NCBI GenBank assembly: GCA_944321435.1
Contig: CALULH010000004.1
Location: forward strand, 1-64,000
Length of the DNA: 64,000 bases
Direction: 5' to 3'
Source of the DNA: an uncultured Coriobacteriaceae bacterium
GTDB taxonomy: Bacteria > Actinomycetota > Coriobacteriia > Coriobacteriales > Coriobacteriaceae
Shown here: positions 37,698 through 44,804 of the stretch, one piece after another
Position numbering within the stretch: position 1 is the stretch's first letter
Layout: each line of letters starts with the position of its first letter
Translations under genes and position numbers: made by a program
The notes under the pieces: generated by a model
The model's input: only the letters and a program-made list of their open reading frames with translations
Told to the model about the DNA's origin: nothing
Databases searched by the model: none

Positions 37698-40600
37698 GTG
37701 GCCGGCCTGTCGCTGCCGTTGCCCGCCTTGGCGGACACGGCGGACGACGCCGCGGCGGTCCAGGCGGCGGCGCAGGCTGTCACCGGGGAGGTGGACGCCC
37801 CGGAGACGCAGGCGGCGGATACCGCTGCGGGGGAGGATGCCCAGGTGGCAGAGGACGAGAGCGCCGCGCAGGCGCCCGATCAGGCCGAGGGCGCCGCGAC
37901 CGAGGGCACGGAGGGCGCCGTGCAGCTGACGGATTTCGCGACCATGGGGAGCACGGCCAGCGTAACCTGCGAGGACGGTGTTATCACCATCGAGGGGACG
38001 GGCGGCGACCACTTCGCGCGCCCGGCGGAGCCCCTCTTTGCCAAGAGCTTCGTCTTCGAGGCGGATGCCAAGGCGGACGTCTCCGCGGCGCTTGCCATCG
38101 TGAGCATGGAGAACGGCGCCGGCAGCCCGTGGTACGCCTTCAACTTCAACAACGACGAGAGCAACGCCCTGCGGTCCCGCTTCTTCGGCGGCGACAACAA
38201 CGAGCGCGTGACCTTCAGCCTGGAGGAGCTCGACGGCGCCGGTATCGACACGCACGCTGAGGTGCATCTGAAGATCGACATGAAGTCCAACGGCGACTAC
38301 ACGCTGACCATCGCCGACGCGGCCGATCAGGGCAGGGCTCTGTCCAAGAGTGCGCATCTTGACGGCTGGAACGGCGGCTACCTGGCGCTTCTCGCCTTCA
38401 ACTCCGGTGCCACGTTCCGCAACGTGAGCTACGTGGACAACACCCAGGCGGATACGCCGGCCGACGCCACCGTTGACTGGGGCGACGGCAAGGTGGCCTC
38501 CAACTTCATCACCGACCCGGCAGGGCAGTTCGCCGTCAACGGCGGCGGCATCTCCGTGGAGGACGGCTCCGTGGTGATGGACTCCACCGGCTTGGGCGAC
38601 CTGTACGCCGTGGTGGCCGATGACGAGCGGAGCTACGGTGACATGGTGTACTCCGCCAAGGTCACGTTCGCCGAGCCCACCGGCTGCGCTTCCCTGGTGT
38701 TCCACGCCAATGGGGATTTCAGCGACAACAAGTCCTACGTGGCCAACATCGATGCCGCAACCGGCGCATGCCGCATCTTCAAGAACGGCGACAGCAAGAT
38801 CACCTCGTCCGACCTGGTGCAGTCCAAGACCGTCGCGCTGTCCGCGGACAACACCTACGAGCTCGCGGTGACGCAGATCGGCAAGCACGTCGTCTTCACC
38901 GTCAACGGCGAGGTCGTGGGCAACACCGGCGACTACACCGCAAACAGCTCCGTCACCGAGGAGGTCAACGCCCACCACGGCCAGGGCGACGCGCTTCTGA
39001 GCGGTTACTGCGGCCTGCTGACCTACAACGCCAAGGCGAGCTACACCGACATCAACGTGACTCCCATCACCGATGAGAACTCCATGCAGCTCTCCTCGCT
39101 GAAGCTCCGCGACGACGGCACGGACATGAACTTCGCCTTCGCCGAGAACCAGTACCTGTACGTGGGCTACGTGTTCAACGAGATCGCGTCGACCGGCATT
39201 GAGTTCACGGCGGTCGATCCCGACGCCACGGTGACCGTGACCGACGCCAACGGCAGCGTGTGCGACCCGTCCAACCTGGCGCTGCGCTACGACGGCGAGC
39301 CCAGCGTGTACGACATGAACTCCGGCCTCACCCCGTACACGGTCACGGTCGAGAACCCCGGCGCGCCCGGCGCCAAGACGCTCTACCAGCTGCGTCTGTT
39401 CCGCGAGAATCCCTCCGACACGTATTACAACGAGACCTGGCGCGACCAGTACCACTTCAGCGTCAAGAACGGCTGGGGCAACGATCCGTGCGGCATGGTC
39501 AAGATCGGCGATACCTGGCACTTCTTCTACCAGGCCTACACCGACGCCGACTGGGGTCCCATGCACTGGGGCCATGCCACCAGCACCGACTTGGTCCATT
39601 GGACCGAGCAGCCCCTGGCGCTCTACCCGGACGAGTACGGCGCGATGTTCTCGGGCTGCGGCGTTGCCGCCGACCATGAGACCGCCCCGACGATCTTCGA
39701 CGAGGGCGAGAGCGGCATGGTGTTCATGGTGACCGCCAACGGCCGCAACGGTGTCGACGACCAGCGCCTGTGCCTTGCCTACAGCAAGGACGGCGGCCAG
39801 ACGTTCCAGAAGCAGGAGATGTACGTCGATGCCGACGGCAACAACGTGGGCGGCGTTATTCTCGACTACCAACAGGGCGATGAGGACCCTCTGCACAATG
39901 CCGCCTTCCGCGATCCCAAGATCTTCCGCTACGATGGCCATTGGTTCATGATCGTGGCCGGCGGCCCGGTGCGCATCTACAAGTCCGACGACCTGATCGG
40001 CTGGACCTGCGAGCAGACGCGCGACGATATCAACACCGAGTGCCCCGACCTGTACCCGGTGAAGGCCGAGGACGGCACGGTCAAGTGGGTCCTGTCCCGC
40101 GGCGGCATCACGTACCGTATCGGCACGTTCGGCCTGATGGACAACGGGCATTACGGATTCGTCGAGGACAGCGCCACTGACTATCCGATGAACTTCGGCC
40201 TGGATCACTACGCTGCCATGACGTTCTTCCTGCAGGGCGAGGACTTCGGCACCGAGGACGCGGTGAACGCGCCCGACGACCTGATCTCCGCCAACTGGAT
40301 GAACAACTGGGCGTACAACCGCATCGTCCAGACCCAGACCGGCAACTACACCTTCAACGGCGCCTACACGCTCATGACGCGCCTGTCGCTGGTGAAGACG
40401 GGCGAGAGCGACGACAGCTACCGCTTGGCGCAGACGCCGCTCACCGAGTACGAGAGCCTGCGCGATGAGGACAATGCCATCAAGGTGACCGACGCGCTCC
40501 TTGGCGACGGCTCGGAGAACCCGTTCGCGGGCTTTGCCGGGACCTCGTACGAGATGGTGGTCAACGCGAAGCCGCAGGAGGGCACGCCGGTCGTGAACCT

Positions 40601-41498
40601 GGACCTGCGCGTGGGCGGCAACCAGTACACGCGCCTGTCCTACGACTTCTCGACGCAGAAGCTCTCGCTTGACCGCTCGCACTCCGGTGTGAACCTGAAC
40701 GACCAGTTCGCGGCAGTCCAGAGCTCTGACGCGGTCCCCAACGAGGACGGCAGCGTGGACCTGCACATTTACGTCGATCGCATGAGCGTCGAGGTGTACG
40801 CGCAGGATGACACGGTGAACGGCACCGCGCAGATCTTCCCGGTGCTGTCGAGCGACGGGCTGTCCGCCACGGCGGAGAACGGCACCGCGGTGCTGAACGC
40901 CACGGTGTACCCGCTGGAGAGCATCTGGAACACGGCGGCCGAGGAGCCCGGCGACGACGTTGAGCAGCCGAGCAAGGATGCGCTCCAGGCCGCGGTCGAC
41001 GAGGCGGCCGGCTTGGCTGAGGACGGCTACGCGGCGGATTCCTGGCAGGCGCTCCAAGATGCGCTGGCCGCCTCCCAGGCCGTGCTGGACGACCCGGACG
41101 CCACGGCCGAGGATATTGCCGCCGCCGAGCAGGCGCTTGCGGAAGCGGTTGCCGGATTGCAGAAGGCCGACCAGGGCGACCAGGGCCAGGGTGGCGACCA
41201 GGGCGACGACCAGCAAGGCGGCAACCAGGGTCAGGGCGGCAACGACGGTCAGACAGGTGACGACGGCCAGGCCGGCACCGGCTCTGACCAGGGCGCAAGC
41301 GGGTCTGACAACGGCTCCGACAACGGATCCGACGCCAGCGGCTCCAACGGTTCCGAGGGGTCCCCGGGCGGCTCCACTTCCCAGGGCGACTTGCCGACCA
41401 CGGGCGACGCGGCGGCCATCGCGGCCGGCGTCTCCGCGCTTGCCGGCGCGGGCGCGCTGACCGGCGCGGCGGTTCTGCGCCGCCGCAAGCGCCGCTAA
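37698..41498 (+). CDS. Sortase-anchored GH32 fructanase (levanase/inulinase-like), abnormal start
   Basis: This is a very large cell-wall fructan hydrolase. All three GH32 catalytic signatures are present: GWGNDPCGMVK (nucleophile Asp, near residue 590), FRDPKIF (Asp stabiliser) and ECPDLYPV (acid/base Glu). Before the catalytic part are two LamG-like beta-sandwich modules and a cadherin-like stretch. After it are the GH32 C-terminal sandwich, a FIVAR-like helical module, a Gly/Gln/Asp repeat linker, LPTTG, a hydrophobic helix and RRRKRR. The signal peptide is readable from 37653 (RRGGRIGATVASLAVVAGLS then LPLPALAD), but no ATG, GTG or TTG precedes it. The only in-frame start is GTG at 37698, inside the hydrophobic core. 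The HAD amber stop directly precedes the frame. It is last in the PTS operon, like sacC after levDEFG. Confidence 0.85.
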   Translation: MAGLSLPLPALADTADDAAAVQAAAQAVTGEVDAPETQAADTAAGEDAQVAEDESAAQAPDQAEGAATEGTEGAVQLTDFATMGSTASVTCEDGVITIEGTGGDHFARPAEPLFAKSFVFEADAKADVSAALAIVSMENGAGSPWYAFNFNNDESNALRSRFFGGDNNERVTFSLEELDGAGIDTHAEVHLKIDMKSNGDYTLTIADAADQGRALSKSAHLDGWNGGYLALLAFNSGATFRNVSYVDNTQADTPADATVDWGDGKVASNFITDPAGQFAVNGGGISVEDGSVVMDSTGLGDLYAVVADDERSYGDMVYSAKVTFAEPTGCASLVFHANGDFSDNKSYVANIDAATGACRIFKNGDSKITSSDLVQSKTVALSADNTYELAVTQIGKHVVFTVNGEVVGNTGDYTANSSVTEEVNAHHGQGDALLSGYCGLLTYNAKASYTDINVTPITDENSMQLSSLKLRDDGTDMNFAFAENQYLYVGYVFNEIASTGIEFTAVDPDATVTVTDANGSVCDPSNLALRYDGEPSVYDMNSGLTPYTVTVENPGAPGAKTLYQLRLFRENPSDTYYNETWRDQYHFSVKNGWGNDPCGMVKIGDTWHFFYQAYTDADWGPMHWGHATSTDLVHWTEQPLALYPDEYGAMFSGCGVAADHETAPTIFDEGESGMVFMVTANGRNGVDDQRLCLAYSKDGGQTFQKQEMYVDADGNNVGGVILDYQQGDEDPLHNAAFRDPKIFRYDGHWFMIVAGGPVRIYKSDDLIGWTCEQTRDDINTECPDLYPVKAEDGTVKWVLSRGGITYRIGTFGLMDNGHYGFVEDSATDYPMNFGLDHYAAMTFFLQGEDFGTEDAVNAPDDLISANWMNNWAYNRIVQTQTGNYTFNGAYTLMTRLSLVKTGESDDSYRLAQTPLTEYESLRDEDNAIKVTDALLGDGSENPFAGFAGTSYEMVVNAKPQEGTPVVNLDLRVGGNQYTRLSYDFSTQKLSLDRSHSGVNLNDQFAAVQSSDAVPNEDGSVDLHIYVDRMSVEVYAQDDTVNGTAQIFPVLSSDGLSATAENGTAVLNATVYPLESIWNTAAEEPGDDVEQPSKDALQAAVDEAAGLAEDGYAADSWQALQDALAASQAVLDDPDATAEDIAAAEQALAEAVAGLQKADQGDQGQGGDQGDDQQGGNQGQGGNDGQTGDDGQAGTGSDQGASGSDNGSDNGSDASGSNGSEGSPGGSTSQGDLPTTGDAAAIAAGVSALAGAGALTGAAVLRRRKRR

Positions 41499-42311: not shown

Positions 42312-44804
42312 CTAGCAGACCGCGACCTCGCGCAGGGAGAAGGCGCCGTCGCGGTACTCCAGCATGCAGAGCGCGCCGTCGGGGATGGCGCGCGGGGTCT
42401 CGCCGGCGTGCCCGGGCAGGGCGGCGATTACTGAGGCCACGGCGTCGGGGTCGGCCACGGCCAGGACGTCGCGCGGGTCGGCGGCATCCATGCGGCGCGT
42501 CAGGGTTTTGAGCATCTGCGCGCCGTCTGCCTTGCGGCGGTCCAGCGCGTCGGTGCAGGTGTAGTCCATCTCGGGCTCGTTGAGCTCCAGCGCGGCGGCC
42601 TTGAGCGTGTCGATGGCGCGCGGCGCCGGCGCGCACAGGAAGTCGCCGACGCGCGCGTGGCGGAACCGCAGCGTACGACCGGCGCGATGCGCCTGGTTGA
42701 GGCCGTAGCCGTTGATGGTCGTGGCGCACCAGTCCTGGATGCGCGGCGGCGTCTGCCCGACGCCGGACGCGCTGGCCAGCAGGTAGAGCACGCGCGGGGC
42801 AGGTTGCTCGGGCGCCGGCTGCGCGGGCGCGGCCTCCGGTTGCCCGGGCGCCGCCTCGGGCTGCGCTGCCGCGTTCTTCTCGTCTTGCACAGCAGGGTCG
42901 TCTGCGGGGGAGGCGGCGGCCGCAGCCTGGTTAGCGGCGGCAGCTTGCCCAACGGCAGCAGAAGCGGTGCCCTCCAGATCTTCCGTGCGAGAAGCGCCCG
43001 TTTCGGCATCCTGGCCGCCCGCGGTTGTTGCGCCCGTGCCATCAGCGGCAGTCTGCGCGGTGTTCTTCTCGTCCGAGGTATCGTTGGTGGCCGTAGCAGC
43101 TCCGGCGCTCTCCGCCGCAGCGCTCTCCGCGCCCGCCGCGCTGTTCTCGCTCGCATCCTCCGCGCCGGGTCGCGTCCAGCCTGCGGGCACCTCGCGCAGC
43201 CACACCACGGAGAGCGGCGGGACCTCAAGGCTGCCGGTCAGCTGGCGCGCCGCGGCGCCCGCGGCGCCTTCGGCCAGCATGTCCTCGAACCAGCAGTTCA
43301 AGGTGCCGTCGTAGAAGGTGTGCGGAGCGTCCTCGGCGTTGACGGCAACCAGCACGCGCTCGCGCGGGTGCTCCCCGTCCTCCGCGGCAACGCGCTCAAA
43401 GAGCAGCTGCTTGTTCTGAATGTTCACGTTGTGGTAATCGCCGTACGCCAGCGCACGCGACCCGGCGCGCACCTCGGCCATGCGGGCGATCAGCGCGGTC
43501 AGCGCGTCGGGGCCGTCCGACATGAGGGACCCCAGGTCCAGATGGGCGATCTGGTTGGCGAGGGCGCCCAGGGGCGCAGCGGGATCCGTGGTCCCCGCAA
43601 GGCGCGCGATCTGCTGCTTTTCTCGCACAAGCGCCGAGCGCTCCGGAGCGGCCAGCTCCGGCCGGATGAGCTTGTCGGCCTCGTAGCCCTGGCCCTTCTC
43701 GCCCGTCTGGCCCCATTCGCTGCCGTAGTACAGGCAGGGGATGCCGGGCATGCCGAGCAGCAGGCCGTAGGCGGGCACCAAGTGGCGTTTCTCGGTGAGG
43801 ATGCTGGCAAGGCGGCTGACGTCGTGGTTGTCGGTGAAGGTCAGAAGATGCTTGCCGCGGTAGATGCACCATTGCTCGGGGCCGAACTGGCGGTTGAGCG
43901 AATGGGCGATCTCGAACAGGTTCATGCTGTTGAAGCTCGAGTACAGGCCCTTGTAGCACTCGTAGTTGGTGCAGGAGTGCAGCATCTGGTCGTTCATGAT
44001 GAGGTTGTAGTCGCCGTGCAGCGTCTCGCCCAGCAGGAAGAACGTGCGGTCGGAGAGCAGCGCCTGCGCTTCGACCAGGTCCTGGGCGGGGGCGCCTTGC
44101 CGCGCGCGCTCCTCGGCGCGGGCTACGGCCTCCTGCGTGACCGCGGGTGCGGGCTCGGCGGAGAGCTCGTTGGCGAGCTCGCGCAGGCGGCGCAGGAAGT
44201 CGTGGTCCAGGCTGTAGGCCACGTCCAGGCGCAGGCCGTCGACGCCCAGCTCGCGGCGCCACATGCGCACGGAGTCCAGCAGGTAGTCGACCACGGCGGG
44301 GTTCTTGAGGTTGAGCTTCACCAGGTCCTGGTTGCCCTCCCAGCCCTCGTACCAGAAGCCGTCGCCAAAGTGCGTGTCGCCGTCGAAGCTGATGTGGAAC
44401 CAGTCCTTGTAGGGGCTGTCCCACTTGCGCTCGCGCACGTCGCGGAACGCCCAGAACTCGCGGCCCACGTGGTTGAACACGGCGTCGAGCAAGATGCGCA
44501 CGCCGTGGGCGTGGAGCTCCTTGACGATCTCGACGAAGTCCTCGTTGGTGCCCAGGCGGCAGTCGATCTGGCGCAGGTCGCGGGTATCGTAGCCGTGCCA
44601 GCTGGACGCGAAGACCGGGTTCAGGATGATGGACCCCACTCCCAGCTCGCGCAGGTAGGGTGCCCAAGCGGCCAGTTTGTTGATGCGATGGTTGGCGCGC
44701 TCGGCTTCCTCGGCGTCCGCGTCGCCCACGGCGGGGGCGTATTGGGGTGCCCCGACGAGCCCCAGGGGGTAAAACTGGTAAAACGTGCTCTCATAGGCCC
44801 ACAT
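42312..44804 (-). CDS. GH13 alpha-amylase-family enzyme fused to a degenerate histidine-phosphatase domain
   Basis: Residues 1 to about 555 are a GH13 (beta/alpha)8 enzyme. ILLDAVFNHVG is conserved region I. GLRLDVAYSLD holds the nucleophile aspartate, FFLLGETLHGD the acid/base glutamate, and LLTFTDNHDVSR the third carboxylate. A maltodextrin or alpha-glucan is the likely substrate, and there is no signal peptide, so it acts in the cytoplasm. An Ala/Glu/Gln/Pro-rich linker of about 110 residues (about 555-665) follows. The last 165 residues match the histidine-phosphatase (phosphoglycerate mutase) outline VLYL...QDWCATTINGYGLNQAH...APAPRAIDTLKAA. The catalytic RHG is replaced by ASA and the late SHG is absent, so this domain should be inactive. 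AGGAGAAAGGGG precedes the ATG. Confidence 0.88.
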   Translation of the reverse strand: MWAYESTFYQFYPLGLVGAPQYAPAVGDADAEEAERANHRINKLAAWAPYLRELGVGSIILNPVFASSWHGYDTRDLRQIDCRLGTNEDFVEIVKELHAHGVRILLDAVFNHVGREFWAFRDVRERKWDSPYKDWFHISFDGDTHFGDGFWYEGWEGNQDLVKLNLKNPAVVDYLLDSVRMWRRELGVDGLRLDVAYSLDHDFLRRLRELANELSAEPAPAVTQEAVARAEERARQGAPAQDLVEAQALLSDRTFFLLGETLHGDYNLIMNDQMLHSCTNYECYKGLYSSFNSMNLFEIAHSLNRQFGPEQWCIYRGKHLLTFTDNHDVSRLASILTEKRHLVPAYGLLLGMPGIPCLYYGSEWGQTGEKGQGYEADKLIRPELAAPERSALVREKQQIARLAGTTDPAAPLGALANQIAHLDLGSLMSDGPDALTALIARMAEVRAGSRALAYGDYHNVNIQNKQLLFERVAAEDGEHPRERVLVAVNAEDAPHTFYDGTLNCWFEDMLAEGAAGAAARQLTGSLEVPPLSVVWLREVPAGWTRPGAEDASENSAAGAESAAAESAGAATATNDTSDEKNTAQTAADGTGATTAGGQDAETGASRTEDLEGTASAAVGQAAAANQAAAAASPADDPAVQDEKNAAAQPEAAPGQPEAAPAQPAPEQPAPRVLYLLASASGVGQTPPRIQDWCATTINGYGLNQAHRAGRTLRFRHARVGDFLCAPAPRAIDTLKAAALELNEPEMDYTCTDALDRRKADGAQMLKTLTRRMDAADPRDVLAVADPDAVASVIAALPGHAGETPRAIPDGALCMLEYRDGAFSLREVAVC

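Follow-up and report, generated by a model that had tools for sequence, protein, structure and literature searches.

The window, i.e., the whole stretch of 64,000 nucleotides analysed here from an uncultured Coriobacteriaceae bacterium, contains on its reverse strand a single open reading frame that joins a glycoside hydrolase of family GH13, a low-complexity linker and a domain derived from a histidine phosphatase (Table 1). The gene neighbours are functionally unrelated to it. One flank encodes a GH32 protein as well as a HAD phosphatase, which lies next to the mannose-type PTS component EIID; the other has Sir2, exonuclease and FolP-FolK genes. The GH32 gene (37698-41498, plus strand), which adjoins the HAD phosphatase and EIID genes, encodes a large protein whose C-terminal part has a FIVAR-like region, with an anchor of the LPTTG type.

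Table 1. Position of the fusion gene, its three parts and the diagnostic sites of its C-terminal domain in the window.
Feature	Position	Strand	Basis or remark
Whole gene: GH13 glucosidase, linker and pseudo-phosphatase domain (830 aa)	42312..44804	-	ORF
GH13 catalytic region, residues 1-543, neopullulanase/cyclomaltodextrinase-like, without N-terminal CBM34	43176..44804	-	Pfam, structure matches; orthologues across Coriobacteriaceae
Low-complexity linker, residues 544-669 (126 aa), 34% Ala plus T, E, G, P	42798..43175	-	Composition
Degenerate branch-1 histidine phosphatase domain, residues 670-830 (161 aa)	42315..42797	-	Pfam, hhalign, AlphaFold2, Foldseek, VIA-align
A677-S678, replacing the catalytic Arg-His (RHG motif)	42771..42776	-	Alignments
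R729, sole phosphate-binding Arg kept (Gln in the sister dead copy)	42618..42620	-	Alignment
Approximate deletion site after 'CTDALD', about residue 755	42535..42550	-	Exact breakpoint alignment-dependent
D785, replacing the second catalytic His	42450..42452	-	Alignment

The GH13 region matches Pfam PF00128 (E value 1e-45) and includes the catalytic triad D194, E260, and D328 in the usual GH13 motifs, in agreement with the first-pass annotation, which had described this enzyme as complete. The nearest solved structures are an alpha-glycosidase (PDB: 7d9b), the neopullulanase of T. thermophilus (2z1k) and TVAII (1bvz), which place the region in the neopullulanase/cyclomaltodextrinase subgroup. 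The window protein has the catalytic core and triad in common with this group, but it lacks the N-terminal CBM34-type domain (the match to 1bvz begins at chain residue 127), as does 2z1k, and carries instead the linker and the phosphatase-derived tail. None of the NCBIfam equivalog cut-offs is reached by the protein, and its substrate is consequently left unassigned. Since there is no apparent signal peptide, the fusion protein is probably cytosolic. The linker is low-complexity and Ala-rich, as first described, but the earlier estimate of about 110 Ala/Gln/Glu/Pro residues has to be replaced by the length and composition given in Table 1.

Homology and residue losses of the C-terminal domain

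The C-terminal domain is homologous to the branch-1 histidine phosphatases. When residues 670-830 are scanned alone, Pfam His_Phos_1 is matched with 24.0 bits (E value 3.5e-5; cut-off 21.7), while the scan of the whole protein gives only 17.3 bits, which is under the cut-off. An hhalign comparison of the window domain and its closest homologue with the standalone phosphatases of Coriobacteriaceae has a probability of 99.2 (E value 1.2e-19) over the full length, with a gap of about 30 residues in the middle of the domain on the dead side. The AlphaFold2 model of the domain (pLDDT 85.5; pTM 0.83) was built from a seven-row alignment that included six histidine phosphatases from viral contigs and so is not fully independent evidence; as a single sequence, without these phosphatases, the domain is modelled with a pLDDT of 39. 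The top ranks of both Foldseek and VIA-align are occupied by histidine phosphatases only, among them SixA (1ujb; Z 20.9, 150 residues, 2.2 A) and PhoE (1h2e; Z 17.9). The whole-domain profile-profile match, the match of the predicted fold and the recurrence of the domain in all four congeners place this homology beyond a chance similarity. Thus, the histidine-phosphatase outline recognized in the first-pass annotation is borne out, and the fold prediction and structure search that it proposed, with an unrelated fold as the refuting outcome, returned the expected family. These structural matches rule out a different, non-phosphatase fold, while an assembly error or a missed stop is ruled out by the in-frame presence of the fusion in four of four genomes, on independent contigs.

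By fold and lineage, the domain belongs to branch 1 of the superfamily, with the homologous alpha/beta fold also seen in SixA and in PhoE from B. stearothermophilus (1h2e/1ebb), and it is SixA-sized. In contrast to both proteins, it is fused to a GH13 enzyme and has lost the Arg-His pair, the second His, and the Glu/cap loop. The RHG motif, which provides the nucleophilic His, reads A677-S678-A679, and the late SHG is replaced by VADPD, in which D785 takes the position of the second His; both substitutions had been read correctly from the sequence at first. R729, the second Arg, is kept. The acid/base Glu, which in enzymes of the PhoE type lies in the loop after beta3, is absent together with the cap loop, as the window domain is about 30 residues shorter than those of the intact congeners; the first-pass annotation had not noted this deletion. 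Judged by these losses, the phosphohistidine mechanism cannot be used by the dead copy.

Intact and dead copies within the genus

The fusion was found in 4/4 genomes of the genus to which the window belongs, among 67 Coriobacteriaceae genomes searched. The GH13 orthologues translated from other genera of the family stop at about residue 450-500, without a C-terminal extension, and some Coriobacteriaceae genomes have no close GH13 orthologue. A class-wide search of 348 genomes with the intact full-length protein as query gave coverage of the C-terminal domain only in this genus, no further fusion was seen at 80 named GH13 loci (Coriobacteriaceae including Enorma and Collinsella; Lachnospiraceae; Oscillospiraceae), and no standalone phosphatase beside a GH13 gene, i.e., no operon precursor, was present in the flanks retrieved from other genera.

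Several candidates were rejected. A phylum-wide search with the phosphatase profile gave one 983-aa frame (L172), which proved to be read-through around an ordinary phosphoglycerate mutase. Among the Atopobiaceae-like frames, those of 654-697 aa (L054, L055, L059) have an ordinary GH13 ending, and those of 644-661 aa (L051, L052, L053, L056) have a different C-terminal sequence. The latter GH13 homologues, from another family of the order, carry an extension of their own, ending ...VQELQ...NVWHDSLVNWAKSF. A frame of 606 aa in a Collinsella-like genome (L173; G017:C7:28000-34000, minus strand), in which a CDF-type cation efflux transporter continues stop-free into an RHG histidine phosphatase, is possibly another phosphatase fusion.

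The limited library of literature searched yielded no account of a GH13 enzyme fused to a histidine phosphatase, consistent with the earlier remark that no standard GH13 architecture includes this domain. The pairing appears to be undescribed, while fusions of the phosphatase fold to other hydrolases are already known.

The question raised in the first-pass annotation, whether any such fusion keeps RHG, is answered by two sister species that retain an intact RHA...H catalytic set. The domains of these copies (L005 of genome G001 and L004 of G003) read LYLMRHAETEFN ... SPSGRA ... LLEASCGxLEG ... GGE ... LVVGH. They match His_Phos_1 with an E value of 1e-30 and align to PhoE (1h2e/1ebb) at all catalytic positions, the RH, Arg, Glu, and His all being present. 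At the same positions the window copy (G000) and the copy of the remaining species (L003 of G002) have ASA/TSA, APR/APQ, a deletion, and VADP/VCDP, respectively. The replacements H to S, H to D, T to G, S to A, and E to K, plus one deletion, are common to this dead pair, which indicates that the decay happened once.

Phylogenetic analysis together with the standalone paralogues groups the four fused domains (89/82), and the stem leading to the dead pair measures 2.05 changes per site. Their nearest kin are standalone Coriobacteriaceae phosphatases of the type RHG...RIQGWCDSPLT (e.g., L034/L140, L145, L150), which share 35-41% identity with an intact fused copy and whose 'RIQ.WC' signature is still present in the dead copy. 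Unlike the fused domain, these phosphatases are single-domain proteins, intact, and encoded elsewhere in the genome. In the window species a remnant of one such gene homologous to L034/L140 was also observed (L154; G000 C3:111973-112172), with a large internal deletion and a change of frame, and intact relatives of it exist in the three congeners. Taken together with the dead fused domain, this remnant implies that the window species has lost two related phosphatases. We infer that the intact fusion of the two congeners is a two-activity protein, and it is the more interesting enzyme when compared with the window copy.

Constraint on the dead domain and its possible role

The two states of the domain differ in selection. 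For the phosphatase domain, pN/pS is 0.07 (CI 0.02-0.15) in the intact pair and 0.77 (CI 0.60-0.98) in the dead pair, compared with 0.10 and 0.21, respectively, for GH13 in the same pairs; the intact domain is thus held under strong purifying selection, with a ratio as small as that of the GH13 joined to it, and the dead pair is about ten times less constrained, as estimated from one pair per state among the four genomes of the genus. The tails of the dead pair share 47% identity, compared with 89% for the joined GH13 enzymes. Nevertheless, pN/pS lies below the values of 0.96-1.28 obtained in neutral simulations started from an intact ancestor. The fair reading is that the dead copies have undergone strong relaxation with some constraint remaining.

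The reading which we favour, with a probability of roughly 0.7, is that the window tail is a pseudo-phosphatase which arose by decay, and only once, from a GH13-phosphatase fusion that was apparently active, and that it is now probably a folded, passive or accessory remnant. The ancestor of the genus would have carried a resident histidine phosphatase of the type RH[G/A]...RIQGWCDSPLT, fused to the C-terminus of a maltodextrin-cleaving GH13 enzyme through an Ala-rich flexible linker. Two of the sampled species apparently retain this protein with both activities. The branch shared by the window species and its sister would have lost the Arg-His pair, the second His and the Glu loop once, before their split, leaving a compact SixA-sized alpha/beta core, which probably still folds, without phosphatase chemistry. 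This remnant appears to evolve under a strongly relaxed yet nonzero constraint. Most likely it now acts, passively or as an accessory, as a tethered, soluble, folded tail harmless to GH13, and it may be heading for loss.

Among the alternatives, the most serious, although still improbable, is a neofunctionalised pseudo-enzyme, in which the dead domain would be retained for a specific non-catalytic job such as oligomerisation, docking of a partner or regulation of GH13. An analogous case is the mycobacterial MutT1 (5gg5), whose measured phosphatase activity does not require the catalytic His of the RHG domain, this domain serving as a support for its Nudix partner (PMC11784022). There, as in the window protein, a histidine phosphatase domain is placed C-terminally on another hydrolase (PMC11784022); the differences are that the partner of MutT1 is a Nudix and not a GH13 enzyme, that RHG is retained, and that there is neither a long low-complexity linker nor any decay. 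A specific job would be compatible with the open frame, with a GC3 of 0.95 and 0.87 in the window and sister copies, with a pN/pS that lies below the neutral simulations and whose confidence interval stays below 1, with the intact predicted fold and with the core hydrophobic columns, of which a fraction of 0.67 is kept in both dead copies over the whole domain (neutral mean 0.28-0.46). However, the constraint is weak given how far the tails have diverged relative to the joined GH13, no surface patch is conspicuously conserved, and the excess of core hydrophobics does not hold up robustly within the ungapped N-terminal block, its P over neutral ranging there from 0.005 to 0.37 according to settings. 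A closely related scenario, which we regard as only slightly more doubtful, has the fusion begin as an enzyme cleaving maltodextrins and dephosphorylating a metabolite, as it still would in the sister species, with the dead domain of the window turned into a module without catalysis that regulates GH13 or provides docking for it.

It is rather unlikely that the tail represents read-through at the gene's end into DNA that is in effect neutral. Such a state would explain why the pN of the tail (0.35) is close to or above the pS of the neighbouring GH13 (0.30). Both real dead copies are open, though, an outcome seen in at most 11% of the neutral runs, all indels are in frame, and pN/pS is 0.77. 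Moreover, the GC3 of the window copy exceeds the neutral simulations, that of the sister copy being within the simulated range at high mutational GC.

The first-pass annotation had suggested that the domain may sense a phosphorylated sugar or bind glycogen; as a ligand sensor of this kind it would tune GH13. Phospho-metabolites are bound by the fold family and the window copy still has R729, but the domain no longer has the first Arg, either catalytic His, or the cap loop, the sister dead copy has Gln in place of the one Arg left, selection is strongly relaxed, and no carbohydrate-binding family is matched; this suggestion is accordingly given up as very improbable. That the window domain is still an active phosphatase through substitute residues is hardly credible, having nothing beyond the fold in its favour and against it a Ser in place of the nucleophilic His, an Asp in place of the second, the deleted Glu loop, and relaxed selection.

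Pseudo-enzymes are usually met long after catalysis has been lost, without a close active relative of the same architecture. Here, related species allow a fused enzyme domain to be seen both with its apparent chemistry and after losing it. Because one genus holds both an intact, strongly conserved and a dead, relaxed form of the fusion, the steps of decay are testable in four orthologues, and the same orthologues allow one to ask whether the dead tail still matters. The intact fusion, in turn, suggests an unexplained connection of a phosphatase with the breakdown of maltodextrins in gut Coriobacteria.
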